From Gammaproteobacteria bacterium (lineage in GTDB: Bacteria; Pseudomonadota; Gammaproteobacteria; Eutrophobiales; Eutrophobiaceae), in the NCBI GenBank assembly GCA_009843675.1, contig VYCZ01000294.1, positions 1-12,398 of the forward strand: a DNA stretch of 12,398 nucleotides, given 5' to 3'. This document shows positions 1 through 12,029 of this stretch, piece by piece. The position numbers and the translations under genes were made by a program. Within the stretch, counting starts at the first letter, position 1; the number at the start of each line of letters is the position of its first letter. The notes beneath the pieces are model-generated. The model ran no database searches. It was not told where the DNA came from and worked only from the letters and a program-made list of their open reading frames with translations.

Positions 1-613
1 TGGCTCATTCCGCTGGCTGAGCGGCAGGGAGATCAGCATTGCGGGCAGGCCCGTGCGGGCGCTCAGGGTGAACTACGTGGGTGAACTGGGCTGGGAACTG
101 CACCCGCTGATGAAATACCTGGAGGAGTTGTACGATGCCCTGCAGGAGGCGGGCGCGGCCCTCGGCCTGACCGATTTCGGGCTGTACGCGGTCAACAGCC
201 TGCGCCTGGAGAAGGGGTACCGGGGCTGGGGCGCGGAACTGACCAACGAAGTCACCATGATCGATGCGGACATGGCGCGTTTCCTCAGGCTGGACAAGGA
301 GGACTTCACGGGGAAACGGGCCACCCTTGAGCAACGGGACAGGAGCCTCCAACTGGTGTATTTCGAAGTGGATGCCACCGACTCCGACGTGCGCGGCAGC
401 GAACCGCTGTACCACGGCGATGCATGCGTCGGCGTGACCACGTCCGGTGGTTACGGCCATTACGTGCGCAAAAGCCTGGGTTTCGGCTACGTTCCGCCGC
501 AACTGGCAGCACCCGGCACGGAACTGGACGTCGGTCTGCTCGGTGAACGGCGCCGGGTGAAGGTACTGCAGGAACCGGTGTATGATCCGGCCAATGAACG
601 GCTGAGAGCATAA
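1..613 (+). CDS. C-terminal part of a GcvT-domain demethylating dehydrogenase (dimethylglycine/sarcosine dehydrogenase family), 5' truncated
   Basis: This frame is open from the left edge (first full codon at base 2) to a TAA at 611-613, giving about 203 residues. The visible part is the end of a GcvT (aminomethyltransferase-like, folate-binding) domain and its C-terminal beta-barrel domain. Blocks shared with the end of the next gene are VGELGWEL (bases 77-100), SLRLEKGYRGWG, TSGGYGHY and the tail YDPANERLR. In the known family an N-terminal FAD oxidase domain removes an N-methyl group and this C-terminal domain captures the one-carbon unit on tetrahydrofolate. The FAD part would lie left of the window, so its presence is inferred from the paralogue downstream. 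A free-standing GcvT-like protein cannot be excluded. The stop codon overlaps the next start by one base (TAATG), which points to one operon with coupled translation. Confidence 0.88.
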   Translation, partial: GSFRWLSGREISIAGRPVRALRVNYVGELGWELHPLMKYLEELYDALQEAGAALGLTDFGLYAVNSLRLEKGYRGWGAELTNEVTMIDADMARFLRLDKEDFTGKRATLEQRDRSLQLVYFEVDATDSDVRGSEPLYHGDACVGVTTSGGYGHYVRKSLGFGYVPPQLAAPGTELDVGLLGERRRVKVLQEPVYDPANERLRA

Positions 614-3069
614 TGTCCGGCGCCACGCCAAACCTTCCCGCACGCGCCGAAGTAGTCATCATCGGCGGCGGCGTGATCGGTTGCTCCATCGCCTATCACC
701 TGGCCAAATTCCAGTCCATGGACGTGGTATTGCTGGAACGCCAACAACTCACATCAGGCACGACCTGGCACGCGGCCGGCCTGATCGGGCAGTTACGCGG
801 TTCCATCAACATGACCCGTCTGGCCCGTTACACCCGGGAACTGTACGAGGGGCTGGAAGTCGAAACGGGACAGGCAACGGGTTACAGGAAATGCGGGTCG
901 GTGTCTATTGCCACCCATGAAGAACGCTTCGAGGAGTTGAAACGTAACGCGTCCATGGCAAAGGTGTTCGGGCTGGAGGTGAGCGTGGTCACACCCGCCG
1001 AGATCAGAGAGCGCATACCATTGCTGTACACCGACGACGTCATCGGCGGGATCCATATCCCTACCGACGGTTACGCCAACGCGGTGGACATCACGCAGGC
1101 CCTGGCCATGGGCGCGCGCACTGCCGGCGCAAGGATTTTCCAGAATGTGGAAGTAACCGCCATCCGCACCGCGGCAGGCAATCTCACCGGCGTCAGCACC
1201 GGGTACGGCGACGTGGATGCCGATTACGTGGTACTGTGCGCCGGCATGTGGACGCGGGACCTGGCCGCCGGCATCGGAGTGAACGTGCCGCTGCACGCGT
1301 GTGAGCACTATTACGCGTTGTTCGAATCTGTCGCCGGCCTGGATGAGAGCCTGCCGGTGATACGGGATTATGACGCCTGCACCTATTACAAGCACGATGC
1401 CGGTAAACTGCTGGTCGGCGCGTTTGAACCTCACGCCCGGCCCTGGGGTATGGACGGTATTCCGGAGGACTTCTGCTTCGACGAGATCGCGGGTGACTTC
1501 GATCATTTCGAGCCGATCCTGCAGGGCGCCATGGCACGTGTACCGGCCCTGGAGTCAGCCGGTATCCAGAAATTCTTCTGCGGCCCGGAGAGCTTCACGC
1601 CCGACGTCCGTTACCACCTGGGCCAGGCCCCGGAGTTCGACAACTGTTTCGTTGCCGCAGGCCTGAATTCCATCGGCCTGCAGTCCGCGGGCGGGATAGG
1701 CAAGGTGGTGGCGGAATGGATGCGCGCCGGACGCCCCCCGGCAGACCTCTGGGAAGTGGACGTGCGCCGCAATATGCCGTTCCAGGGCAACCGCAAATAC
1801 CTGCACGAGCGCGTGTCCGAGAGCCTGGGCCTGCTCTATGCCAGGCATTACCCCTATCGCCAGTATGAAAGCGCCCGCGGCGTGCGCAAGTCGCCGCTCT
1901 ACGAGCGCCTGGCAGCCGCCGGCGCCTGCCACGGCGAGACCGCCGGCTGGGAGCGGCCGAACTGGTACGCGCCGCCGGGGATGGAAGCCCGGTACGAAGT
2001 CAGCTACGGGCGCCAGAACTGGTTCGAATACTCGGCCGCGGAGCACCGCGCGGCGCGCGAAAACGTGGCCCTGTTCGACCAGTCGTCCTTCGCCAAGTAC
2101 CGCCTGGAAGGACCGGACGCGGCGCGGGCGCTGAACTACGTGTGCGCCAATGATGTTGACGTGCGGCCCGGCCGCATAGTCTACACCCAGTGGCTGAACG
2201 GGAATGGAGGGATAGAGGCGGACCTGACGGTAACGCGCCTGGGTGAGGACAGTTTCCTGATCGTCACGGCCGCGGCCACGGAAGTGCGCGATTTTCACTG
2301 GCTGAAACGGCACGTCCCCGCCGACGCGCACTGTGTGCTCACCAACGTAACCTCAGCCATGGGTGTGATATCCGTGATGGGCCCCAACGCGCGCAAGCTG
2401 TTGCAACCGTTGACACCCGACGACCTGTCGAACGAGGCGTTCGGCTTTGCGAACAGCCGGGAGATTGAACTGGGCTACGCGCATGTGCGCGCCTCGCGCA
2501 TCACTTTCGTAGGCGAACTGGGTTGGGAACTGTATATACCGACCGAGTTCGTCGCCGGGGTCTACGATGAAATCACGGCTGCCGGAGAGGCGCTGGGCCT
2601 GGCCCATGCCGGTTACCACGCACTGGATTCGCTGCGCATCGAGAAGGCCTACCGGCACTGGGGCCACGACATCACCGACGAGGACACGCCGCTGGAGGCG
2701 GGCCTGGGGTTCACGGTGAAGTTCGACAAACCGGGCGGTTTCATCGGCCGCGACGCGTTGCTCAGGCAGCGCGAACAGGGCCTGCAGAGGCGCCTGCTGC
2801 AGTTCAGGCTGCTGGACCCGGAACCCCTGCTTTACCACAACGAACCGGTTTGGCATCGGGGCCGGATTGTCGGCCACATCACCTCCGGCAGTTACGGCCA
2901 CACCCTGGGCGGCAGCGTTGGCCTGGGTTATGTCGACACGTCGCAGGTACAGGACGCCGGAGAACTGCTGGAGGACGGCTTCGAGATCGAGGTGGCCGGC
3001 GTACGCGTCCCGGCCCAAGCCTCGCTGCGCCCGATGTACGATCCCGGCAACAAACGCATCCGCTGCTGA
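613..3069 (+). CDS. FAD-dependent dehydrogenase with GcvT domain (dimethylglycine/sarcosine dehydrogenase-like)
   Basis: An 818-residue flavoprotein. Oxidative removal of a methyl from a secondary or tertiary N-methyl amine is the family reaction, with the carbon passed to tetrahydrofolate. The N-terminal Rossmann motif is IIGGGVIG (16-23), with the ribose-binding acid E42 at the end of strand 2. The following SGTTWHAAGL block carries His53 in the position where mammalian dimethylglycine dehydrogenase binds FAD covalently through histidine. The FAD/DAO domain runs to about residue 380, a short FAO-middle domain to about 440, then GcvT (about 440-705) and the GcvT C-terminal barrel (about 712-805). 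D537 in GGIEADLTV matches the folate-site Asp described for Arthrobacter dimethylglycine oxidase. The architecture and length fit DMGDH/SARDH; substrate choice between dimethylglycine, sarcosine and a related amine cannot be read. The start is the ATG overlapping the upstream stop; only a weak GAGAG lies before it, consistent with coupling. The protein lacks a signal peptide, so it is probably cytoplasmic. Confidence 0.93.
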   Translation: MSGATPNLPARAEVVIIGGGVIGCSIAYHLAKFQSMDVVLLERQQLTSGTTWHAAGLIGQLRGSINMTRLARYTRELYEGLEVETGQATGYRKCGSVSIATHEERFEELKRNASMAKVFGLEVSVVTPAEIRERIPLLYTDDVIGGIHIPTDGYANAVDITQALAMGARTAGARIFQNVEVTAIRTAAGNLTGVSTGYGDVDADYVVLCAGMWTRDLAAGIGVNVPLHACEHYYALFESVAGLDESLPVIRDYDACTYYKHDAGKLLVGAFEPHARPWGMDGIPEDFCFDEIAGDFDHFEPILQGAMARVPALESAGIQKFFCGPESFTPDVRYHLGQAPEFDNCFVAAGLNSIGLQSAGGIGKVVAEWMRAGRPPADLWEVDVRRNMPFQGNRKYLHERVSESLGLLYARHYPYRQYESARGVRKSPLYERLAAAGACHGETAGWERPNWYAPPGMEARYEVSYGRQNWFEYSAAEHRAARENVALFDQSSFAKYRLEGPDAARALNYVCANDVDVRPGRIVYTQWLNGNGGIEADLTVTRLGEDSFLIVTAAATEVRDFHWLKRHVPADAHCVLTNVTSAMGVISVMGPNARKLLQPLTPDDLSNEAFGFANSREIELGYAHVRASRITFVGELGWELYIPTEFVAGVYDEITAAGEALGLAHAGYHALDSLRIEKAYRHWGHDITDEDTPLEAGLGFTVKFDKPGGFIGRDALLRQREQGLQRRLLQFRLLDPEPLLYHNEPVWHRGRIVGHITSGSYGHTLGGSVGLGYVDTSQVQDAGELLEDGFEIEVAGVRVPAQASLRPMYDPGNKRIRC

Positions 3070-3071
3070 TA

Positions 3072-4616
3072 TCAGGCCCTGCCGATAGCCTCCCGCGGCA
3101 GGAATATGGGAAACCTCGACCTCACCTCCAGGTCGGCCTCATCACTGACGTGGTTCGGGAAATGGCTCGCGAGGATGGCCCGCTTCTTCTCGATGGCCTT
3201 CTGCAACATGACCGGCTTGCCATTCTCCTCCCACACGGTGGGACTGGTCCGGTCGCCGAAATCCGGGTAGATATATTCGCTCTGCATGACCTTCAGAGTG
3301 CGGTCCGAGCCCAGGTAATGGCCCTCTCCACTGGTACAGACCTGTTTGATCTCGTCAAAACCCAGGGTCTCCGCGTTCACCTCGATGCCGCGCGTGACCC
3401 GCAGGGCCGCGCCGAGCACGTCATTGTCCAGCAGCAGGCTCTCCGGACAGGTGCCCAGCAGGCTTGCGTACATACCTGCCGATTCGTACACCAGGTTGGC
3501 GCCCGCCAGCGCCGCGGACAGGATTGTTCCGGCCCGTTCCGCACCGGCCTGGAAATCCGGAAATTTCGCATCCGTCATGCCGCAGGCGGTGCCGAACGGC
3601 AGGTCGTAGACAATACCCATCTGGGCGCAGGCCGCGGACAGAAGGCCCTGCTCGGGCGAACCGCCGCTCATGGCGCCGGTGCGCAGGTCGGAGACGAACG
3701 GCCAGGCGCCGAGAATGGCCGGGGCGCCGGGTTCGATCGCATTCACGTAGACCAGGCCGCCCAGACATTCTGCCCAGGCCTGGGAAACCGCGCCCGCCAG
3801 GCACGCCGGCGTGGTGGCGCCGGCCTGCCCCGCAGACAGCAGCAGCACCGGCATGCCGCCCTGGACCGCGGCCCGCAGGCATTCCAGCGATTCCTGTGCA
3901 AACTTCATGGGCGGCACGACGAAGCAGTTGGACTGGCTGACAAACGGCCTTGCCCGCCACGCGGCCTCGCCGCCGGCCATGACGTGCAGCATTTCCAGGG
4001 TCTTTTCCAGGTGGGCGGCTTCGGTCCAGCTCGAGGCGACGTGCTTGCCGGTGCCCATGGCCACGCAATAGGCGGTGTTGAGGTCCATCTCGTAGTTGTC
4101 GGCAACATCGCGCAACACGCAGGTACGCTGGAACATGTGTATATGTTCGCAGGTGTCGGCGATGCGCGCCATGTCGTACAGGTCCTGCGCCGTTGATTCC
4201 CGGTAGCTGTTGTTTTCCGGGTCGGCGACCATGACCGCCGCCCCGGCCGTGGAGAAGTGCACCCGGCTGCCGCTGAGGTCCAGGTCGTGCCCGGGGTCCT
4301 GGCCGTGCAGCACCAGGTTGCGCCGGGCCAGCGCCATGGCGTTTTCGACTACGGGTCTCGGCATTCTCAGGCGGCCGTCGCTGCCAAGCACCGCGCCTGC
4401 TGCGGTACAGGTCTCTATGCAGTGCGGCGTGGCCTCGATGAAGCCGACTTCCTCCAGGATCCTGAAGATATTTTCATTTACGGCCTCGACGTCAGCGTCT
4501 TTCAGCGGCCGGAACTGGCCGCCGGCCTCGCCGGGATGAACGGGCTTGAGCGCATCATCCAGGGGCGCAGCGCGTAATGCCCTGCGCGCTTTTCTTCCAC
4601 CTGATTGCCTTGCCAT
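3072..4616 (-). CDS. MttB-superfamily (trimethylamine methyltransferase family) corrinoid methyltransferase, pyrrolysine-free
   Basis: A 514-residue protein of the MttB superfamily. Members transfer a methyl from a methylated amine to the Co(I) of a partner corrinoid protein. Recognisable family blocks are VHFSTAGAAVMVADPEN, the AGQAGATTP loop, WPFVSDLRTGAMSGGSPEQ, GMTDAKFPDFQAG (346-358) and the C-terminal YIYPDFGDRTSPT. The frame has no internal TAG. It therefore differs from true trimethylamine MttB, which needs pyrrolysine, and resembles pyrrolysine-free members such as glycine betaine methyltransferase MtgB; a quaternary amine substrate is the best inference. The N-terminus is very basic (MARQSGGRKARRALR). 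The ATG at 4614-4616 is preceded by a good TGGAGG ribosome site. The gene follows its presumed corrinoid partner by 147 bases in the same direction, with a palindromic element in between. Its TGA lies two bases from the stop of the convergent flavoprotein gene. Confidence 0.93.
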   Translation of the reverse strand: MARQSGGRKARRALRAAPLDDALKPVHPGEAGGQFRPLKDADVEAVNENIFRILEEVGFIEATPHCIETCTAAGAVLGSDGRLRMPRPVVENAMALARRNLVLHGQDPGHDLDLSGSRVHFSTAGAAVMVADPENNSYRESTAQDLYDMARIADTCEHIHMFQRTCVLRDVADNYEMDLNTAYCVAMGTGKHVASSWTEAAHLEKTLEMLHVMAGGEAAWRARPFVSQSNCFVVPPMKFAQESLECLRAAVQGGMPVLLLSAGQAGATTPACLAGAVSQAWAECLGGLVYVNAIEPGAPAILGAWPFVSDLRTGAMSGGSPEQGLLSAACAQMGIVYDLPFGTACGMTDAKFPDFQAGAERAGTILSAALAGANLVYESAGMYASLLGTCPESLLLDNDVLGAALRVTRGIEVNAETLGFDEIKQVCTSGEGHYLGSDRTLKVMQSEYIYPDFGDRTSPTVWEENGKPVMLQKAIEKKRAILASHFPNHVSDEADLEVRSRFPIFLPREAIGRA

Positions 4617-4763: not shown

Positions 4764-5501
4764 TTACGCGGCGACGGCTGTGCGCGTCGTCACGAGGCGG
4801 GTGCCGGTATCCGCGGCTTCGGCCGCGTCCCGGCAGTAGGCGTCCGCGCCTACCGCCCTGCCGAACTCCTCGTTCAGCGGCGCGCCACCCACCATCACGA
4901 TGTAATCATTCCGGATGTTCTGTGACACCATCTCGTCGATGACAACCTTCATATAAGGCATGGTGGTGGTGAGCAGGGCCGACATGCCGAGAATATCCGG
5001 CTTGTGCTGCTCCAGCGCGGCAAAATAGTCCTCGACGCTGTTGTTGATGCCGATGTTGACAACCTCGAAACCGGCACCCTCCATCATCATGCCTACCAGG
5101 TTCTTGCCGATGTCGTGGATATCGCCCTTGACGGTGCCGATCACCATCTTGCCGATGGGCTTGGCCCCGGTCTCCGCCAGCAACGGGCGCAACACCTCCA
5201 TGCCGCCCTTCATGGCGTTGGCCGCCAGCAACACCTCCGGCACGAACAGGATGCCGTCGCGGAAATCGATGCCGACGATCTGCATGCCGCCGACCAGCGC
5301 TTCGTTCAACACCTTGTCCGCGGCCCAACCCCGGTCCAGCAGAAGCTCCGTACCTTCGACGATCTCATCCCGGAGACCGTCGTACAAGTCGTCGTGCATC
5401 TGCTCCACCAGTTCGGAATCGTCGAGTTCCGACAGGACCAGTTCTTCTTCCTGGTCGTCAACCCAGTTGTCTACCGCCGCTTCTTGAATCGTCACTGTCA
5501 T
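4764..5501 (-). CDS. Corrinoid (B12-binding) methyl carrier protein, MttC/MtgC-like
   Basis: A 245-residue protein that would carry the methyl group on its cobalt for the MttB-like enzyme encoded next. It has the helical cap domain (about 35-115, including FVPEVLLAANAMKGGM) and a Rossmann-like B12 domain. The signature is complete: D127-x-H129-x-x-G132, S174-x-L176 and G205-G206, with the spacing of 41 and 28 residues usual in methionine synthase-type corrinoid proteins. H129 is the lower axial cobalt ligand. An acidic stretch of 34 residues precedes M35, where shorter members of the family begin. I keep the upstream ATG because it is preceded by GGGAG, although the spacing is short (two bases), and because the extra stretch reads as coherent protein. 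The gene is the first of a leftward pair, divergent from the dioxygenase gene. Confidence 0.94.
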   Translation of the reverse strand: MTVTIQEAAVDNWVDDQEEELVLSELDDSELVEQMHDDLYDGLRDEIVEGTELLLDRGWAADKVLNEALVGGMQIVGIDFRDGILFVPEVLLAANAMKGGMEVLRPLLAETGAKPIGKMVIGTVKGDIHDIGKNLVGMMMEGAGFEVVNIGINNSVEDYFAALEQHKPDILGMSALLTTTMPYMKVVIDEMVSQNIRNDYIVMVGGAPLNEEFGRAVGADAYCRDAAEAADTGTRLVTTRTAVAA

Positions 5502-5516
5502 GTCTCCCGGATGCCG

Positions 5517-5552
5517 GAAATTTCGCGGAAGTCTGAATTAGACCGCAATTTC
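5517..5552. promoter_or_regulatory. Dyad symmetry upstream of the corrinoid protein gene
   Basis: GAAATT (5517-5522) plus GCGG (5525-5528) pair with CCGC (5543-5546) plus AATTTC (5547-5552), leaving a two-base bulge. An inner TCT/AGA pair closes a GAATT loop. On the minus strand this sits about 15 to 50 bases before the ATG and overlaps a possible -10 hexamer. It could be an operator or a hairpin in the 5' leader; sequence alone does not decide. Confidence 0.4.
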
Positions 5553-5567: not shown

Positions 5568-5594
5568 CGACATCGTTGCATCCAAATGCGACAT
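5568..5594 (-). promoter_or_regulatory. Composite direct-repeat motif, copy A (candidate activator site)
   Basis: On the minus strand this reads ATGTCGCAT, twelve other bases, then ATGTCG. The two ATGTCG units start 21 bases apart, so they face the same side of the helix. The motif ends 66 bases before the corrinoid gene start. The same arrangement recurs at 6876-6902 before the TonB receptor gene. Direct half-sites about two helical turns apart are typical of AraC-family activators, which include known regulators of glycine betaine and carnitine catabolism in Pseudomonas. The assignment to that family is inference; no regulator gene is in the window. Confidence 0.6.
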
Positions 5595-5631
5595 ATCGGT
5601 TAATTTATTTGTAAACGGGAGCATATTTGTT

Positions 5632-5645
5632 CGCTATTATTAGCG
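5632..5645. promoter_or_regulatory. Short perfect dyad CGCTA-TTAT-TAGCG before the dioxygenase gene
   Basis: Five bases pair perfectly across a TTAT centre, 33 bases upstream of the ATG at 5679, in an AT-rich stretch. It contains TATTAT (5635-5640), the only reasonable -10 for the rightward gene, although no good -35 stands at the right distance. It may be an operator over that promoter. Weak evidence. Confidence 0.3.
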
Positions 5646-5678
5646 CTGTTCCGGAAACCAACCGCTTGAAACAACGCC

Positions 5679-6854
5679 ATGGCAATGACATCTCAGGTTA
5701 TCGGGGAGCAGTTACCTTCGATTGAACCGCAGGCGGACGGCCTGGTGATCGCCTGGCCGGGGGGAGACTGCAGCCGCCACCTGTACTACTGGCTGCGGGA
5801 AAACTGCCACTGCCCGCAATGCACACACCAGGATGCCTGGGAGCGTATCGCCGATTTCCTGGCGATCCCCCTGGATATTACGCCGGACAAGTTCAGCGGC
5901 GACGCCCGCGGACTGCATCTCACCTGGCCCGAACACGGGGCCGACTGTGACGGGACTTTCTATAGCTGGGACTGGCTGTACCGCCACCGCTGCGAACGGG
6001 AGGCGCGCCTGGAGCGCAAGCAACGGCGCACGGCCTGGACCGCCCGGGAGTTTGACATCAAGCGTGTGTCCGTCGGCTTTACAGGTGTCATGGCCGGCGA
6101 TAACGCCCTGCTGGAAATGCTGGAGCATATCGATGATACGGGCGTAGCCCTGGTCACCGGCGTGCCGTCGGAACATCTTGCCGTCGTGCGCCTGGCGGAA
6201 CGCATCGCCTTCATCGAGGAATCCCACTTCGGCCGCTACTTCGACGTGGAATCGAAACCTGACCCGGAAAACCTGGCCTATACGCCGCGGGCGCTGTATC
6301 CCCATAACGACCTCCCCAGCCGCACTCATCTGCCGGGAATCCAGTTCCTGCATTGCCTGCAGAACGACGCGCAGGGCGGGGACAGCATCATGGTCGATTC
6401 TATCGCTTCGGCCGGGAAGCTGCAGCAAACGGATGCGGCGGCTTTCGAGCTGCTGAGCACCCATAAGGTCACGTTCACCTACGTCGCCGAAGACCGGCAT
6501 ATCGTCAATCGCGGCTGCGTGATAGAGGTCGATGAAGACGGCAATATCATCGGCACCCGGCTGCACCCGGCGCTGCTGGGACCGGTGGACATCGAACCGG
6601 AGTTACAGGCGCAGTTCTACCGGGCGCACCGGGCGCTTCTCGACATCGCTACCAGCGCCGAGATGCAGTACCGCTTCCGCCTGAACAATGGCGACTGCCA
6701 GGTATTCGATAACCATCGCATCATGCACGCGCGCAGCGAGTTCGATCCGGACAGCGGCTACCGGCATTTGCAGGGCTGCTACATCTGCCGGGACGATCTG
6801 CGGAGCCGCCTCGAGGTGTTGCGCAGGACAGGCGGGAATTTCCGTCACACGTGA
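5679..6854 (+). CDS. 2-oxoglutarate/Fe(II) dioxygenase, gamma-butyrobetaine hydroxylase-like
   Basis: A 391-residue protein of the gamma-butyrobetaine dioxygenase type, which hydroxylates gamma-butyrobetaine to L-carnitine using O2 and 2-oxoglutarate. The N-terminal zinc domain has C43-x-C45-x-x-C48, with H86 (WPEHG) as a plausible fourth ligand; human BBOX1 has the same C-x-C-x-x-C plus His pattern. The catalytic TauD/TfdA domain has the iron ligands H209-N-D211 (PHNDLP) and H350 (HRIMHAR), and R362 in YRHLQGCY to hold 2-oxoglutarate. Length and ligand positions are close to human BBOX1 (387 residues; H202, D204, H347). Another betaine or a trimethyllysine-like substrate remains possible. 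The ATG at 5679 is chosen as the first in frame; a second ATG follows at 5685, and neither has a strong ribosome site. It is transcribed divergently from the corrinoid gene across 177 bases. Confidence 0.9.
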   Translation: MAMTSQVIGEQLPSIEPQADGLVIAWPGGDCSRHLYYWLRENCHCPQCTHQDAWERIADFLAIPLDITPDKFSGDARGLHLTWPEHGADCDGTFYSWDWLYRHRCEREARLERKQRRTAWTAREFDIKRVSVGFTGVMAGDNALLEMLEHIDDTGVALVTGVPSEHLAVVRLAERIAFIEESHFGRYFDVESKPDPENLAYTPRALYPHNDLPSRTHLPGIQFLHCLQNDAQGGDSIMVDSIASAGKLQQTDAAAFELLSTHKVTFTYVAEDRHIVNRGCVIEVDEDGNIIGTRLHPALLGPVDIEPELQAQFYRAHRALLDIATSAEMQYRFRLNNGDCQVFDNHRIMHARSEFDPDSGYRHLQGCYICRDDLRSRLEVLRRTGGNFRHT

Positions 6855-6875
6855 CCCGGCGTCTCACATCCAACA

Positions 6876-6902
6876 ATGTCGCATAGAGTATAAAAAATGT
6901 CG
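6876..6902 (+). promoter_or_regulatory. Composite direct-repeat motif, copy B (candidate activator site)
   Basis: ATGTCGCAT, twelve bases, ATGTCG: the same 15 fixed positions and the same 21-base phase as copy A at 5568-5594. It ends 69 bases before the receptor ATG, against 66 for copy A and the corrinoid gene, and points the same way relative to its gene. It lies upstream of the predicted promoter, the usual place for an activator. Confidence 0.6.
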
Positions 6903-6911
6903 GTTCAGGGA

Positions 6912-6939
6912 TTGTGGTAGAATAGCTCTTTACTATAAT
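6912..6939 (+). promoter_or_regulatory. Predicted promoter of the TonB-dependent receptor gene
   Basis: A perfect TATAAT (6934-6939) has TTGTGG (6912-6917) sixteen bases upstream, matching TTGACA at only three positions. The surrounding sequence is AT-rich, unlike the coding regions. A second possible -10, TAGAAT (6918-6923), lies closer to the composite motif. The weak -35 fits control by an activator. Confidence 0.45.
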
Positions 6940-6971: not shown

Positions 6972-9878
6972 ATGTCCAATAATGCCGAATTCAAACGCAA
7001 TAAGCTGAACTGCGCAATCCTGTCAGCCCTCACCGCAACGGCAGTCAGTTCTCCCGCCAACGCACAGATCGAAGAAATCATCGTAACCGCGACCAAGCGC
7101 GCCGAATCCACCCAGGACATCCCGGTATCGGTCTCCGCCCTGCAGGGCGAGGACCTCCAGGAACTGCGCATCAGCACCTTCGATGATTACGTCAGGTACC
7201 TGCCCAACGTGGTGACCATGGGCACCGGCCCCGGGCAGAGCGAACTCTACATCCGCGGCGCCGCCACCGAGCAATCGAAAAATACCATCTCGGCGATCCA
7301 GGGATCGGCGCCGGCGGTGGCATTGTACGTGGATGAGATGCCGGTCGCGTTCGGAGGGCGCAACCTGGACGTTTATGCGACGGACCTCAACCGTATCGAA
7401 GTATTGCCGGGACCCCAGGGTACCCTGTTCGGCGCCAGTTCCCAGTCCGGCACGGTGCGCCTGATCACCAATAAACCCGTGCAGGGCGAATTCCAGGCCG
7501 GCGCCAGTGTTGACGTGTCCACCACCCGTGGCGGCGCCGTCAGTAACTCCCAGGAAGCCTATCTCAACGTGTCCCTGAGAGACGATCTGGCCGTGCGCAT
7601 CGCTGCCTACCACGACGAGCAGGCCGGCTGGATCGACAACATCAGCAACCTTGACGGCAGTGGCAATGTAATCCCCGGCGGTTTCGAAACCAACGATGGC
7701 GGCCTTGTCACCGTGCTTAATCGAAACACCGCCAATGTTTCGGCGGGATTCATCCATCCTGACAGCCCCGTCGAAGCCGCGGAAAACAGCGCGCTGGTCG
7801 AAGACGACTTCAACGATGCCACCTACATCGGCGGGCGCTTCAGTCTGGCCTATGAACCGACAGACAACTTTGGCCTGCTGGTGCAGCATACCCAGCAATC
7901 CCTGGAGGCGGATGGTGTGTTCGCCTATGACCCCAACCTGGACGGCGAGAGCAGCACAACCCGCTTCACCCGCGACACCAGCGAGGACGATTTCGGCCTG
8001 ACCACCCTGACCCTTAACGGACGCATCGGCATGCTGGATATGATCTACACCGTCGGTTACCTGGACCGGGAGATGGAGGCTCTTGTAGACTACACGGACT
8101 ATACCGCAGGCGGCGGCTACCAGGTGTACTACCTGTGTGCCCCGGTCAGGGATTGGGGCGGTAACGGATTTGTGGGCTATGGCGGCACGGTGGGCGTGAG
8201 CGAATGCCACGACCCGGAGGCACAGTACATCGACAATAACGACAGCAAACGCGTCACCCAGGAATTCCGCGTCTCCATGCCGGACGACCACCGCATCCGG
8301 GTGACTGCAGGCGCGTTCTTTGATGAACAGACAACCAATGGAACAGCTTCTTTCGAGGACGCGGCTACCCAGGACGACGGTGACGGACACTGGTTGCCCC
8401 TGGCAATGATAGGCGACCAGGTGCCGGGTACGAACGCAGACCCCAACGTGCCGTTCAATCCCAGGGTCAGTTTCGTCAACGACTACACCCGCAAGACCGA
8501 ACAGATGGCCCTGTTCGGGCAGCTTGATTTCGATCTCACGCCGACCGTTACCGCCAGTTTCGGCGCGCGTTGGTACGATATCGACTTCGATTTCAAGGGA
8601 AACAGCAGCTTCTCTTTCGGCTGCAAGGACTTTGACGGGATTGTCGGCAATGAAGCCGGCCCTTGTGACTCCAGTTTCGGGCGCGGCGGATTCGATGCCA
8701 CCAGTCCCACCTCGGGCAACAATGTGACTGCCCGGCTGGCGGCCCTGGGTACGGGTACTCTGGAGGCTCTCTCGACTGTCAATGCCGATGCCTGCCGGCC
8801 TGACGCCCCCAGGTGTCGCGGCGGTACCGGGGACATGTTCAGCTCCAGTGCAGAGGAGGTACTGGCAGACATCCAGAACGGTTCCCTCAACGTGAGCAAC
8901 CTGGACAGCGACGGTGTCCTGAATGAATCAGACGTCATCTTCCGGGCTTCACTGGACTGGAAGGTGACCGACGACATCCTGTTGTTCACCACCTTCGGCC
9001 AGGGCTTCCGCCCACCCGTTACAAACAGGAACGCCGGTAAACGTTCTAACAGGCAAACCGGTCCGTATGAGGGTTACCGTGTGCCGGCAATCGCCTTGAC
9101 CGACAAGATGGACAACTACGAGTGGGGCATCAAGGCGGATTTCTTGGACAGGACGCTACGGGCCAACGCGACCGGTTACTATTCCGAGATAGACGACCTG
9201 CAGGTATCCCGGTTTGACCCCGCCAACGTGGCCTTCCTGGTGTTCATTGAGAACGTGGGCGATGCGGAGATCCTGGGCGCTGACGGTGATTTCACCTGGG
9301 CGCCGACGGACAACCTGACCATTGCTGGCGCCTTCAGTTTCGTCGACAGCGAGATTACCAGTCTGAATCCACAGCTTGACGGCATTGCCGTGCCGGTGGG
9401 CAGTGAACTGCCGTTCACTCCGGACTTCTCCGGCAACCTGCGGGCGCGCTATGAATTCGACGTGCCTGTCATGGGCGGGGCGAATGCCTATATCTCAGGC
9501 GGCCTCAGCTACACCGGCGAGAGCAAGTCGGGCATCGCGGGCAGCGCTTTCGCCGTTGAAGACACGCTCAAGCGCACTCACGGCGGCCGCGGTTCAGGAC
9601 TCAAGATTGCCAATGAGGGCGGCGACTTTGCTGCCGGCAACTGCGGCGCCTACGATGCTCCCATCGCCTGCCCGAACGGCAGGTACGTGCAGGATGACTA
9701 CGTCCTGCTGGATATGGCAGTCGGTTTCAGGAGCGATACCTGGGGTGCGGAACTGTTCGTGAATAATGTCACCGATGAACGGGCCGAACTGCACATCGAT
9801 ACCTTGCAGTATGTGCCCAAGGTGGTAACCAACCGGCCGCGCACTTTCGGCGTCCGGTTCTCCTACGACTATAACTGA
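6972..9878 (+). CDS. TonB-dependent outer-membrane receptor
   Basis: A 968-residue receptor that would import a substrate across the outer membrane with energy from TonB-ExbBD. A signal peptide covers about residues 1-31 (KRNK, a hydrophobic core, then PANA before Q32). The TonB box EEIIVTA is at 34-40, directly followed by a plug domain (TQDIPVSVSALQ ... LPNVV ... YIRGAA ... VALYVDEMP ... IEVLPGPQGTLFGASSQSGTVRLIT). The rest is a 22-strand-type beta-barrel rich in alternating residues and ending in FGVRFSYDYN. Eight of the nine cysteines form close pairs (389/412, 551/565, 608/615, 891/900), probably disulfides in surface loops. It is much longer than BtuB, and the start of the mature protein resembles receptors from sphingomonads and marine gammaproteobacteria with unknown ligands. 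The ATG at 6972 lacks a clear ribosome site. The substrate is unknown; the promoter motif shared with the corrinoid operon suggests a methylated amine or a corrinoid. Confidence 0.95.
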   Translation: MSNNAEFKRNKLNCAILSALTATAVSSPANAQIEEIIVTATKRAESTQDIPVSVSALQGEDLQELRISTFDDYVRYLPNVVTMGTGPGQSELYIRGAATEQSKNTISAIQGSAPAVALYVDEMPVAFGGRNLDVYATDLNRIEVLPGPQGTLFGASSQSGTVRLITNKPVQGEFQAGASVDVSTTRGGAVSNSQEAYLNVSLRDDLAVRIAAYHDEQAGWIDNISNLDGSGNVIPGGFETNDGGLVTVLNRNTANVSAGFIHPDSPVEAAENSALVEDDFNDATYIGGRFSLAYEPTDNFGLLVQHTQQSLEADGVFAYDPNLDGESSTTRFTRDTSEDDFGLTTLTLNGRIGMLDMIYTVGYLDREMEALVDYTDYTAGGGYQVYYLCAPVRDWGGNGFVGYGGTVGVSECHDPEAQYIDNNDSKRVTQEFRVSMPDDHRIRVTAGAFFDEQTTNGTASFEDAATQDDGDGHWLPLAMIGDQVPGTNADPNVPFNPRVSFVNDYTRKTEQMALFGQLDFDLTPTVTASFGARWYDIDFDFKGNSSFSFGCKDFDGIVGNEAGPCDSSFGRGGFDATSPTSGNNVTARLAALGTGTLEALSTVNADACRPDAPRCRGGTGDMFSSSAEEVLADIQNGSLNVSNLDSDGVLNESDVIFRASLDWKVTDDILLFTTFGQGFRPPVTNRNAGKRSNRQTGPYEGYRVPAIALTDKMDNYEWGIKADFLDRTLRANATGYYSEIDDLQVSRFDPANVAFLVFIENVGDAEILGADGDFTWAPTDNLTIAGAFSFVDSEITSLNPQLDGIAVPVGSELPFTPDFSGNLRARYEFDVPVMGGANAYISGGLSYTGESKSGIAGSAFAVEDTLKRTHGGRGSGLKIANEGGDFAAGNCGAYDAPIACPNGRYVQDDYVLLDMAVGFRSDTWGAELFVNNVTDERAELHIDTLQYVPKVVTNRPRTFGVRFSYDYN

Positions 9879-10025: not shown

Positions 10026-12029
10026 ATGGCTGTGAATTCCAATCAAACAGACGCGCCTGAAAATCTTACCCTTGCAAAACAACTGATTCAAACTGGCAGG
10101 TTCGACGAGGCGCTCTCAACGGCGGAAAGTTTCCTGGCATCCGGACCGGATGAGGAAGACCGCATAGAGGCGTTGTACCTGCTGGCGGTCGCTCAGCGTT
10201 ACGCCAACCGGCGCAGCGAGGCATTGGCGACACTGGACACCCTGCTCGCCGGCAATCCCGAACATGCCCGCGCGCACCAGGAACGCGGCCATATCTTCCT
10301 GTCCCTCAACCGCAGCGAAGACGCCGCCCCGGCTTATGCCAGGGCGGTTGAACTGAATCCCGCGCTGAAGGCCAGCCTGAATGCGCTCGTCAATCTGGAG
10401 GAACGCCTTGGCAGGGCGGAACAGGCCCAACTGGCCCGGGAACGGCTGGATTTCCTCAACCGGTTGCCGCCGGAACTGGTCAACGTCCTTGACCTGGTTC
10501 ACGAGAACAAACTCTACAAAGCGGAACTGTTGTGCCGGGATTACCTGAAAAAACACAGGCACCATATCGAGGCCATGCGCCTGCTGGCGGAAATCGGGGT
10601 CAGGATGGGTATTTACGACGATGCGGAGTTCCTGCTGGAAAGTTGCGTGGAGTTCGCTCCGGACCACCTGCAGGCCCGCATCGATTACGTCAACATCCTG
10701 ATCAGGAAGACCCGTTTTGAAAAAGCCCATGAACAGGCAAAGCTGCTGCTGGAACGGGAACCCGGTAATCCGGGCTTCCAAAGCACCCTGGCAACCACAC
10801 TCGTGGGCCTGGGCAGGTTCGAAGAGGGAATTGCCTTGTACCGGGAAGTATTGGAAGCCCACCCCTACCGCACCGAACTGCACGTACAGGCAGGTCATGC
10901 CCGGAAGACCGTGGGCCAACTGGACGAGGCTATCGAGTCCTACCGCGAAGCCTACCGGCGCAGGCCGGACTACGGCGACGCCTACTGGAGTCTGGCCAAC
11001 ACCAAGACCTATAAATTCACGGATGAGGAGATTGACGATATCAGGCATTACGCGGATGCACCCGGCGTGGCGCCCACCGACCGGGTCAACCTGTGTTTCG
11101 CCGGCGGCAAGGCGCTGGAAGACCGCAGGGAGTACGGCGAAGCATTCGCCTGTTACGAAAAGGGCAACGGCCTGAAGCTGCGCCAGACCGGATACAGGAT
11201 CGAAAAGATGGAGGCGCGCGTGGAGGCGCAGGTTGGGACCTGTACCGGCGAATTGTTTACACGCCGGCAGGGAGTCGGGTCTGATGACCGCGACCCGATC
11301 TTCATCGTCGGACTTCCCCGCTCCGGCTCCACCTTGCTGGAACAGATCCTGGCGTCCCACAGCATGGTGGACGGCACCATGGAACTGCACAACATACTCG
11401 CGCTGGCGCAGAAACTGCGCGGGCGTGAACCTGAAAAGTCGTCCCGGTATCCCGCCATCCTGCATGAACTGGAGCAAGACTACTTCCGGCGGTTTGGGGA
11501 ACAATACATCAAGGATACCGGGGTCTATCGGGGCGATGCGCCCCTGTTCATCGACAAGATGCCGAACAATTTCCTGCATATCGGTCTCATTCGCCTGATA
11601 TTGCCCAATGCCAGGGTGATCGACGCCCGGCGCGATCCCATGGCCTGCTGTTTCAGTTGCTACAAGCAGTTGTTCGGCGAGGGGCAGGAATTCACATACG
11701 GCCTGCAGGAATTGGGACGCTACTACCGCGCCTACGTACGGCTGATGGAACACTGGGACAGGGTGCTGCCCGGGTTCGTCCTGCGCGTAATGCACGAGGA
11801 CGTGGTCGACGACCTGGAAACCCAGGTGCGGCGCATCCTGGACTTCTGCGGCCTGCCCTTCGAGGAAGCCTGCCTCAACTTCCATGAAACCGAACGCAGC
11901 GTGCGCACGCCCAGTTCCGAGCAGGTCAGGCAACCCATCTACCGCAGCGGCCTGGAACAATGGCGCAACTTCGAACCCTGGCTGGACCCGCTGAAAGAGG
12001 CGCTGGGACCGGATCTGCTCGAACAATGA
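10026..12029 (+). CDS. TPR-sulfotransferase
   Basis: A 667-residue two-part protein. Residues about 10-340 are tetratricopeptide-type helical repeats (for example units near 47-80, 81-113, 178-212, 213-246, 247-280 and 281-314). Residues about 420-650 form a PAPS-dependent sulfotransferase domain. The 5'-phosphosulfate loop is G429-LPRSGST (429-436) after IFIV. R536 and S544 in RRDPMACCFS fit the 3'-phosphate site with the usual R-x7-S spacing. DKMPNNF is the block found in this branch, before the strand leading to the 3' site. The protein has no signal peptide, as expected where PAPS is the donor. The acceptor is unknown and could be a peptide, sugar, lipid or small molecule. No Shine-Dalgarno is visible before the ATG at 10026, which stands only 16 bases after the inverted repeat; a later start is possible. 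The stop overlaps the next start (ATGA). Confidence 0.92.
   Translation: MAVNSNQTDAPENLTLAKQLIQTGRFDEALSTAESFLASGPDEEDRIEALYLLAVAQRYANRRSEALATLDTLLAGNPEHARAHQERGHIFLSLNRSEDAAPAYARAVELNPALKASLNALVNLEERLGRAEQAQLARERLDFLNRLPPELVNVLDLVHENKLYKAELLCRDYLKKHRHHIEAMRLLAEIGVRMGIYDDAEFLLESCVEFAPDHLQARIDYVNILIRKTRFEKAHEQAKLLLEREPGNPGFQSTLATTLVGLGRFEEGIALYREVLEAHPYRTELHVQAGHARKTVGQLDEAIESYREAYRRRPDYGDAYWSLANTKTYKFTDEEIDDIRHYADAPGVAPTDRVNLCFAGGKALEDRREYGEAFACYEKGNGLKLRQTGYRIEKMEARVEAQVGTCTGELFTRRQGVGSDDRDPIFIVGLPRSGSTLLEQILASHSMVDGTMELHNILALAQKLRGREPEKSSRYPAILHELEQDYFRRFGEQYIKDTGVYRGDAPLFIDKMPNNFLHIGLIRLILPNARVIDARRDPMACCFSCYKQLFGEGQEFTYGLQELGRYYRAYVRLMEHWDRVLPGFVLRVMHEDVVDDLETQVRRILDFCGLPFEEACLNFHETERSVRTPSSEQVRQPIYRSGLEQWRNFEPWLDPLKEALGPDLLEQ

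Follow-up and report, generated by a model that had tools for sequence, protein, structure and literature searches.

The locus described here raises the question of why the gene of a corrinoid protein and that of an outer-membrane TonB-dependent receptor should be preceded by the same composite sequence motif. Based on our analysis of the window (the whole stretch of DNA under study, 12,398 nucleotides in length) and of related genomes, it is quite probable that the corrinoid-MttB operon and the receptor are under one control, through a shared operator of the CdhR/GbdR type and an AraC-family activator carrying a GATase1 domain.

Genes and proposed operator copies in the window

On its minus strand, the window encodes a divergent methyltransferase of the MttB superfamily (3072..4616; 353 bits against PF06253 and 188 bits against 9yce, a glycine betaine methyltransferase), the frame of which has no internal stop, and an MtgC-like corrinoid protein (4764..5501) with B12-binding Pfam domains and a score of 188 bits against NF047996, below the cut-off of 370. 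Within the methyltransferase gene, the Rfam model PYLIS_3, a pyrrolysine insertion element of mttB, was matched at gathering score (3479-3578, minus strand), as it was in loci L116 and L119; given the uninterrupted frame in the window, this match likely reflects plain mttB gene similarity. Positions 2-3069 hold, according to Pfam, GcvT and dimethylglycine/sarcosine-dehydrogenase-like genes, the latter coding for a flavoprotein with DAO and GCV_T domains (613..3069, plus strand); the start of this operon in G000, the window's own genome, falls off the contig. Further along the plus strand are the genes of a gamma-butyrobetaine-dioxygenase-like enzyme (5679..6854; 288.7 bits against TIGR02409 and 287.7 bits against TmpA, both below cut-off), of the TonB-dependent receptor (6972..9878; plug and barrel Pfam domains), and of a TPR protein with a sulfotransferase domain (10026..12029; PF13469, 172 bits), which is the conserved partner of the receptor.

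The two copies of the motif flank the dioxygenase gene. Operator A (5568..5594, minus strand) reads ATGTCGCAT-TTGGATGCAACG-ATGTCG and ends 66 bp ahead of the corrinoid gene ATG at 5501, and operator B (6876..6902, plus strand) reads ATGTCGCAT-AGAGTATAAAAA-ATGTCG and ends 69 bp ahead of the ATG at 6972 of the receptor, its predicted target. Both 27-bp copies match all 15 fixed positions of ATGTCGCAT-N12-ATGTCG without mismatch, and in both the ATGTCG unit is directly repeated at 21 bp, which confirms the sequence, the placement and the 12-base gap given for them in the preliminary description. The core of the distal half-site is TGTCGC in A and B, while the proximal cores, TGTCGT and TGTCGG, are without the last C; spacers and flanks differ between the copies. 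No further match to the pattern was found in the window, even with up to three mismatches, and such loose matches averaged 0.44 in shuffled windows, with at least two in 17 of 200 shuffles. The G000 assembly (2.63 Mb, 466 contigs, 77% complete) contains two exact copies, both in the window, and four other matches with two mismatches each.

We did not accept the post-hoc significance of the pair within the window as proof. Four pairs with a common 9-N12-6 layout are present there, against a shuffle average of 1.1, and since 119 of 200 shuffles hold at least one, such a pair is in itself not rare. Just one of these pairs has its own hexamer repeated 21 bp on, an arrangement seen in 0 of 200 shuffles. 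An argument from the window by itself is weaker than the preliminary description assumed. The comparative evidence for the operator pair is stronger than these statistics.

Conservation and further sites within the genus

The operator pattern was matched with at most one mismatch in 29 of 144 genomes searched. Site B could be aligned in all seven genomes of the genus, with 15 of 27 columns invariant compared to 7 of 54 in the left flank and 6 of 45 in the right; the fixed bases changed were 3 of 15 in G004 and 1 of 15 in G005, and the half-sites of the receptor have thus not been lost in close relatives. The distal half-site and the conserved left edge of operator B together make up CAACAATGTCG (6871..6881, plus strand), 11 consecutive columns that are invariant in the seven genomes. 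The corrinoid/receptor pair of sites is present in five of the seven (G000, G001, G002, G003, and G006), and an orthologue of site A was found in all five genomes that share this gene arrangement. In G003 and G006 the dioxygenase gene is absent from between the sites, which there face away from each other within one intergenic region.

When TGTCGNAT-N9..17-TGTCG was searched in the seven genomes, 22 of 41 matches fell at N13, corresponding to the 21-bp period, and the other 19 were distributed across eight other spacings. Seventeen of the 22 precede pathway or receptor genes (the corrinoid gene in five cases, the receptor in five, mtgB in four, and the dimethylglycine-dehydrogenase operon in three), and five were taken as coding, four of which were checked; G003:C112:33702 was assigned to this class through its near-identity to G000:C110. 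Sites are thus mostly not found in genes or before unrelated ones, with the proviso that a long open frame alone cannot separate coding from promoter sequence, because such frames extend over all three dimethylglycine-dehydrogenase sites as well.

Further sites were found in the genus. In G001, G003, and G006 the repeat stands ahead of the gene with which the dimethylglycine-dehydrogenase operon begins, and the mtgB promoter has the site in all five genomes in which this promoter is available, in G006 as the variant CTGTCG; the G000 mtgB match begins 5 bases from a contig end and is therefore outside this count. The mtgB gene encodes the second methyltransferase of the genus, which is MtgB-like (753 bits against 4yyc, 427 bits against 9yce). 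A weaker site precedes an operon with aldolase-like, acyl-CoA-dehydrogenase-like, and crotonobetainyl-CoA-hydratase-like genes in G001, G004, and G006. No site was found before the MttB1 gene or the dimethylglycine-dehydrogenase-like gene of G004. The ten corrinoid and mtgB promoters align as ATGTCG-C/T-AT-N4-ATG-C/T-A-N3-ATGTCGT and onward to a TCTAAT element, and because they are homologous beyond the site, which points to shared ancestry, these two promoters are not independent evidence.

Downstream of the dimethylglycine-dehydrogenase operator, additional single half-sites (TTGTCGGAT, TTGTCGCAT) were noticed in L119 (1440-1800) and L123 (1230-1460). Separately, L241 (G004:C1:1064300-1064390) holds tandem 21-bp repeats of GTCGAAGG-like units, which mimic the operator in motif scans.

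Sites in more distant genomes

The sole exact copy among 137 genomes from outside the genus was found in G069, where it ends 103 bp ahead of an mtgC gene whose product is 76% identical over 222 residues. At 23 other non-genus loci, with one mismatch each, no query pathway gene was found within about 1.5 kb, and these were taken as chance matches.

In a survey of mtgC loci (the best 80 of 588 relatives, with up to 2.3 kb upstream of each), TGTCG-N16-TGTCG was found ahead of mtgC in 12 of the 80, compared to one match on the reverse strand and to 36 matches over 35 other spacings, with a maximum of 6 at N28. Seven of the 12 repeats are located 1.68-1.81 kb upstream, ahead of an MttB-family gene, and four at 114-177 bp; the repeat of L077, 517 bp upstream of mtgC, may be due to chance. 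Spacer sequences vary among the loci with the repeat, the exact form of which is absent from 68 of these best 80. With the looser pattern TG[TC]CG the contrast was lower (15 matches at N16, 9 at N28, and 8 at N19).

Receptor genes outside the genus provided a second set of promoters. In L282, from another family, mtgBC and a row of TonB-dependent receptor, TPR, and BCCT genes are divergently transcribed and are each faced by a site, the two sites matching at 11 and 10 of 12 positions, and the receptor of L058 is preceded by CTGTCGC...ATGTCGC. Overall, 4 of 17 non-genus receptor promoters have a site with at least 10 of 12 positions, where shuffles lead to expect 0.16; at other periods, the same promoters reach 10 in 4 of 204 tests. 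This threshold was chosen after receptor loci of the L058 and L282 type had been seen, the 17 exclude L041 (where the receptor is cut by the end of the locus) as well as the second receptor in each of L281 and L283, and the number of independent promoters is below 17 because some of the genomes look closely related (L043, L048, and L055; G194, G306, and G401). No site was found in the remaining 13 of 17. These 13 promoters speak against a coupling of the receptor to the pathway, as does G005, which has no MttB-family gene and no GATase1-type regulator and still keeps the receptor and its site, with one fixed base changed. The G005 exception could be explained if genes were lost recently, if a contig is missing, or if a different regulator acts there.

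The candidate regulator

A search for HTH_18 in the seven genus genomes returned 61 matches, 57 of which were sorted into 18 groups of AraC proteins; four short or weak ones were left out. When representatives of all 18 groups were scanned, a DJ-1/PfpI (GATase1) domain was found in a single group. This GATase1-type regulator occurs as a single copy in six genus genomes and is missing from G005; the G000 copy lies on contig C382, and a lone TGA in the G004 match was taken as the end of the frame. The G001 protein row includes the regulator between a BCCT gene and a CaiT-like BCCT gene on one side and genes of BKACE and L-carnitine dehydrogenase (470.6 bits, cut-off 414) on the other. The representative L145 scores 38.8 bits against PF01965 (cut-off 26.6) and 76.4 bits against PF12833, and both domains are also present in L134 of G000. 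Its score against the GbdR equivalog NF052371 was 344.7 bits, and because the curated cut-off of 480 was missed we refer to it as GbdR/CdhR-like and not as GbdR. Regulator and receptor are on one contig in G001, G004, and G006, with BCCT genes beside the regulator and about 15 kb from the receptor; in these three genomes no site was found ahead of the BCCT operon to which the regulator belongs. GbdR-like genes, with at least 38% identity over 250 aa, were found in 24 of the best 80 of 588 mtgC loci. Cultured marine strains are among the carriers of the distant version: HTCC2143 has a GbdR-like gene at locus L051, and HTCC2148 a relative of the receptor at locus L038.

The operators bound by such regulators in Pseudomonas aeruginosa offer the closest comparison. 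According to the available text of PMC5806209, the CdhR half-site is GGTCGC with a 15-bp spacer and is very similar to the GbdR, SouR, and ArgR sites. Copies A and B resemble the CdhR/GbdR operators in having direct half-sites at a 21-bp period, a (G/T)GTCGC core within which GTCGC is common to both systems, and a position ahead of genes for betaine or carnitine catabolism, and the candidate regulator likewise combines GATase1 and HTH_18 domains. They differ in their ATGTCG core, in the CAACA that borders the receptor site on its left, and in their targets, among which are genes of cobalamin-dependent methyltransferases and that of a TonB-dependent receptor. A usable GbdR consensus was not found in the accessible part of PMC12323605. 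We also considered the ARG box of the Pseudomonas ArgR, an AraC-type protein, which PMC10963909, in its available portion, gives as TGTCGCN6GNAA in tandem, 5 bp apart and thus with the same 21-bp period, the second repeat being generally less conserved. The tandem TGTCGC half-sites are alike, and identity with this box was rejected since its G-N-AA tail is missing at A and B.

An alternative, which we regard as rather unlikely, is that the operator is that of an AraC-type protein other than the GATase1-type regulator, for example of the FeaR-like one encoded nearby. A FeaR-like protein is, in fact, present in five of the seven genus genomes; its gene shares a contig with the site pair in G001 and G006 and, in G004, immediately precedes the mtgB operon. 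The receptor site of G005 is kept without the GATase1 regulator, though G005 lacks the FeaR-like group as well. Nor does the 21-bp period alone single out GATase1 regulators, because the SphR sites, as far as described in the available text of PMC3900636, are also direct repeats, of 15-base units 6-8 bp apart. Against the FeaR-like protein, none was found among the matches listed for the best 80 of 588 mtgC loci, compared to the 24 loci with GbdR-like genes, and both the half-site letters and the period fit the CdhR operator as it appears in the accessible text of PMC5806209. The comparative data favor what had been suggested at the outset, one AraC-type activator related to GbdR and CdhR that would bind before, and activate, both the corrinoid operon and the receptor gene.

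The receptor, its partners and its possible ligand

The genomes of the genus appear to be very rich in TonB-dependent receptors, with 55 to 129 receptor matches per genome. The window receptor has one ortholog in each of them, that of G002 being cut by a contig end. For the remaining 46 of the order's 53 genomes, the best candidates, up to 16 per genome, included no ortholog at E 1e-150. In a search of the class, 9 of 369 genomes, own genome included, matched it at E 1e-80 among the best candidates listed (up to two per genome). A separate search for receptor homologs returned no name that indicates a ligand. In G003 (C123:18599-19357), fragments that are 67-94% identical to the receptor and lie within one 302-aa frame make up a partial extra copy.

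The receptor had been described as otherwise an orphan, and its neighbors argue against this. A relative was found in 9 of the best 80 of 588 mtgC loci, always together with the TPR/sulfotransferase partner (9 of 9), and a BCCT gene adjoins this pair in 6 of the 9, while BCCT genes occur in 3 of the remaining 71 loci. Likewise, BCCT genes are close by in 6 of 9 receptor loci from eight non-genus genomes, and in 5 of these 6 the stretch of 20 kb holds no mtgBC. BCCT matches number one to three in each of 14 genomes searched. TPR/sulfotransferase proteins are seen to accompany this receptor type across families (window 10026-12029; L275-L283). Given the link that the two matching sites make to the demethylation genes, the cargo of the receptor is likely to be a compound related to betaine or carnitine.

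It might be argued, instead, that the receptor imports cobalamin or another corrinoid for the B12-dependent methyltransferase, and that co-regulation serves the supply of cofactor. B12 receptors are TonB-dependent, as BtuB is, and the window receptor is tied to a B12-dependent pathway by the operator sequence that it shares with the corrinoid protein gene. This reading is nevertheless disfavored, and we hold it improbable. The window receptor resembles the BtuB model TIGR01779 in the plug region only (34 bits over residues 11-216, below the cut-off of 599.7), and a cobalamin riboswitch, matched once in each of the seven genus genomes, is always located elsewhere than the receptor; none was found in the window, L116, L119, or L123. 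In G001, the only genome where the riboswitch was traced, the next gene encodes a separate BtuB-like receptor (553 bits against TIGR01779, cut-off 599.7). Furthermore, relatives of the window receptor adjoin BCCT genes in five loci without mtgBC. It is very improbable, and likewise disfavored, that A and B match by chance or through the duplication of a promoter, with no regulation in common, since in spite of the post-hoc pairs in 119 of 200 shuffles and of the corrinoid and mtgB promoters being evidently duplicates, the internal hexamer repeat was in no shuffle, the 21-bp spacing is enriched in distant genomes, A and B differ in spacers and flanks, and the site columns are kept above the flanks in seven genomes.

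Proposed mechanism and implications

If the operator is indeed of the CdhR/GbdR type, its pair of ATGTCG half-sites, directly repeated with a period of 21 bp, would be bound by a dimer of the GATase1-type AraC protein encoded on contig C382 of G000. By analogy with CdhR and GbdR, from which both the inducer and the direction of control are borrowed, a betaine or carnitine metabolite would be sensed and the regulator would then occupy the tandem half-sites. Just downstream of the proximal half-site of operator B, a putative receptor promoter (6912..6939, plus strand) was read by eye, with a weak -35 TTGTGG (6912-6917), a 16-bp spacer, and TATAAT (6934-6939), the latter being kept in five of the seven aligned genomes, not in G004 and G005; a consensus scan of the window listed no sigma-70 promoter. 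For the corrinoid gene, a candidate -10 element is TCTAAT (5537..5542, minus strand), which is identical in 6 of the 10 aligned corrinoid and mtgB promoters. Tandem direct half-sites, one of them adjoining a weak -35, suggest activation by a dimer, and RNA polymerase would be recruited by the bound regulator. The available text of PMC5806209 places CdhR among the class I activators; here, the proximal half-site seemingly adjoins the -35. Site A would in this way turn on the corrinoid-MttB operon, and site B the receptor together with its TPR/sulfotransferase partner, while elsewhere in the genus mtgB, the dimethylglycine-dehydrogenase operon, and perhaps the crotonobetainyl-CoA-type operon would also be driven.

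The pathway itself has a counterpart in the mtgBCD(E) genes for glycine betaine demethylation in marine bacteria (PMC12478193, as seen in its available text), with which the genus shares an mtgC-like corrinoid gene and an MtgB-type gene; the methyltransferase of the window, on the other hand, is a second and divergent MttB type. The terms AraC and TonB are absent from the main text of that paper, and by title or beginning of abstract we found no description in the open-licence literature of a link between a betaine or carnitine regulon and a TonB receptor.

Our results would widen the role of a regulator type familiar from Pseudomonas, which would then include the cobalamin-dependent demethylation of betaine in marine and uncultured Gammaproteobacteria, and the operator pattern could be used for scanning genomes. 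Quaternary-ammonium compounds are usually thought to cross the outer membrane through porins. We tentatively propose that the receptor, the TPR/sulfotransferase protein, and BCCT transporters might form a TonB-dependent import route for such compounds, or for larger carriers of them, under CdhR/GbdR-type regulation together with cobalamin-dependent demethylation. If this were true, a substrate class usually assigned to porins would have an outer-membrane system of its own. The shared operator in any case predicts a ligand class for one receptor out of the large number of TonB-dependent receptors that lack an assignment in this genus.
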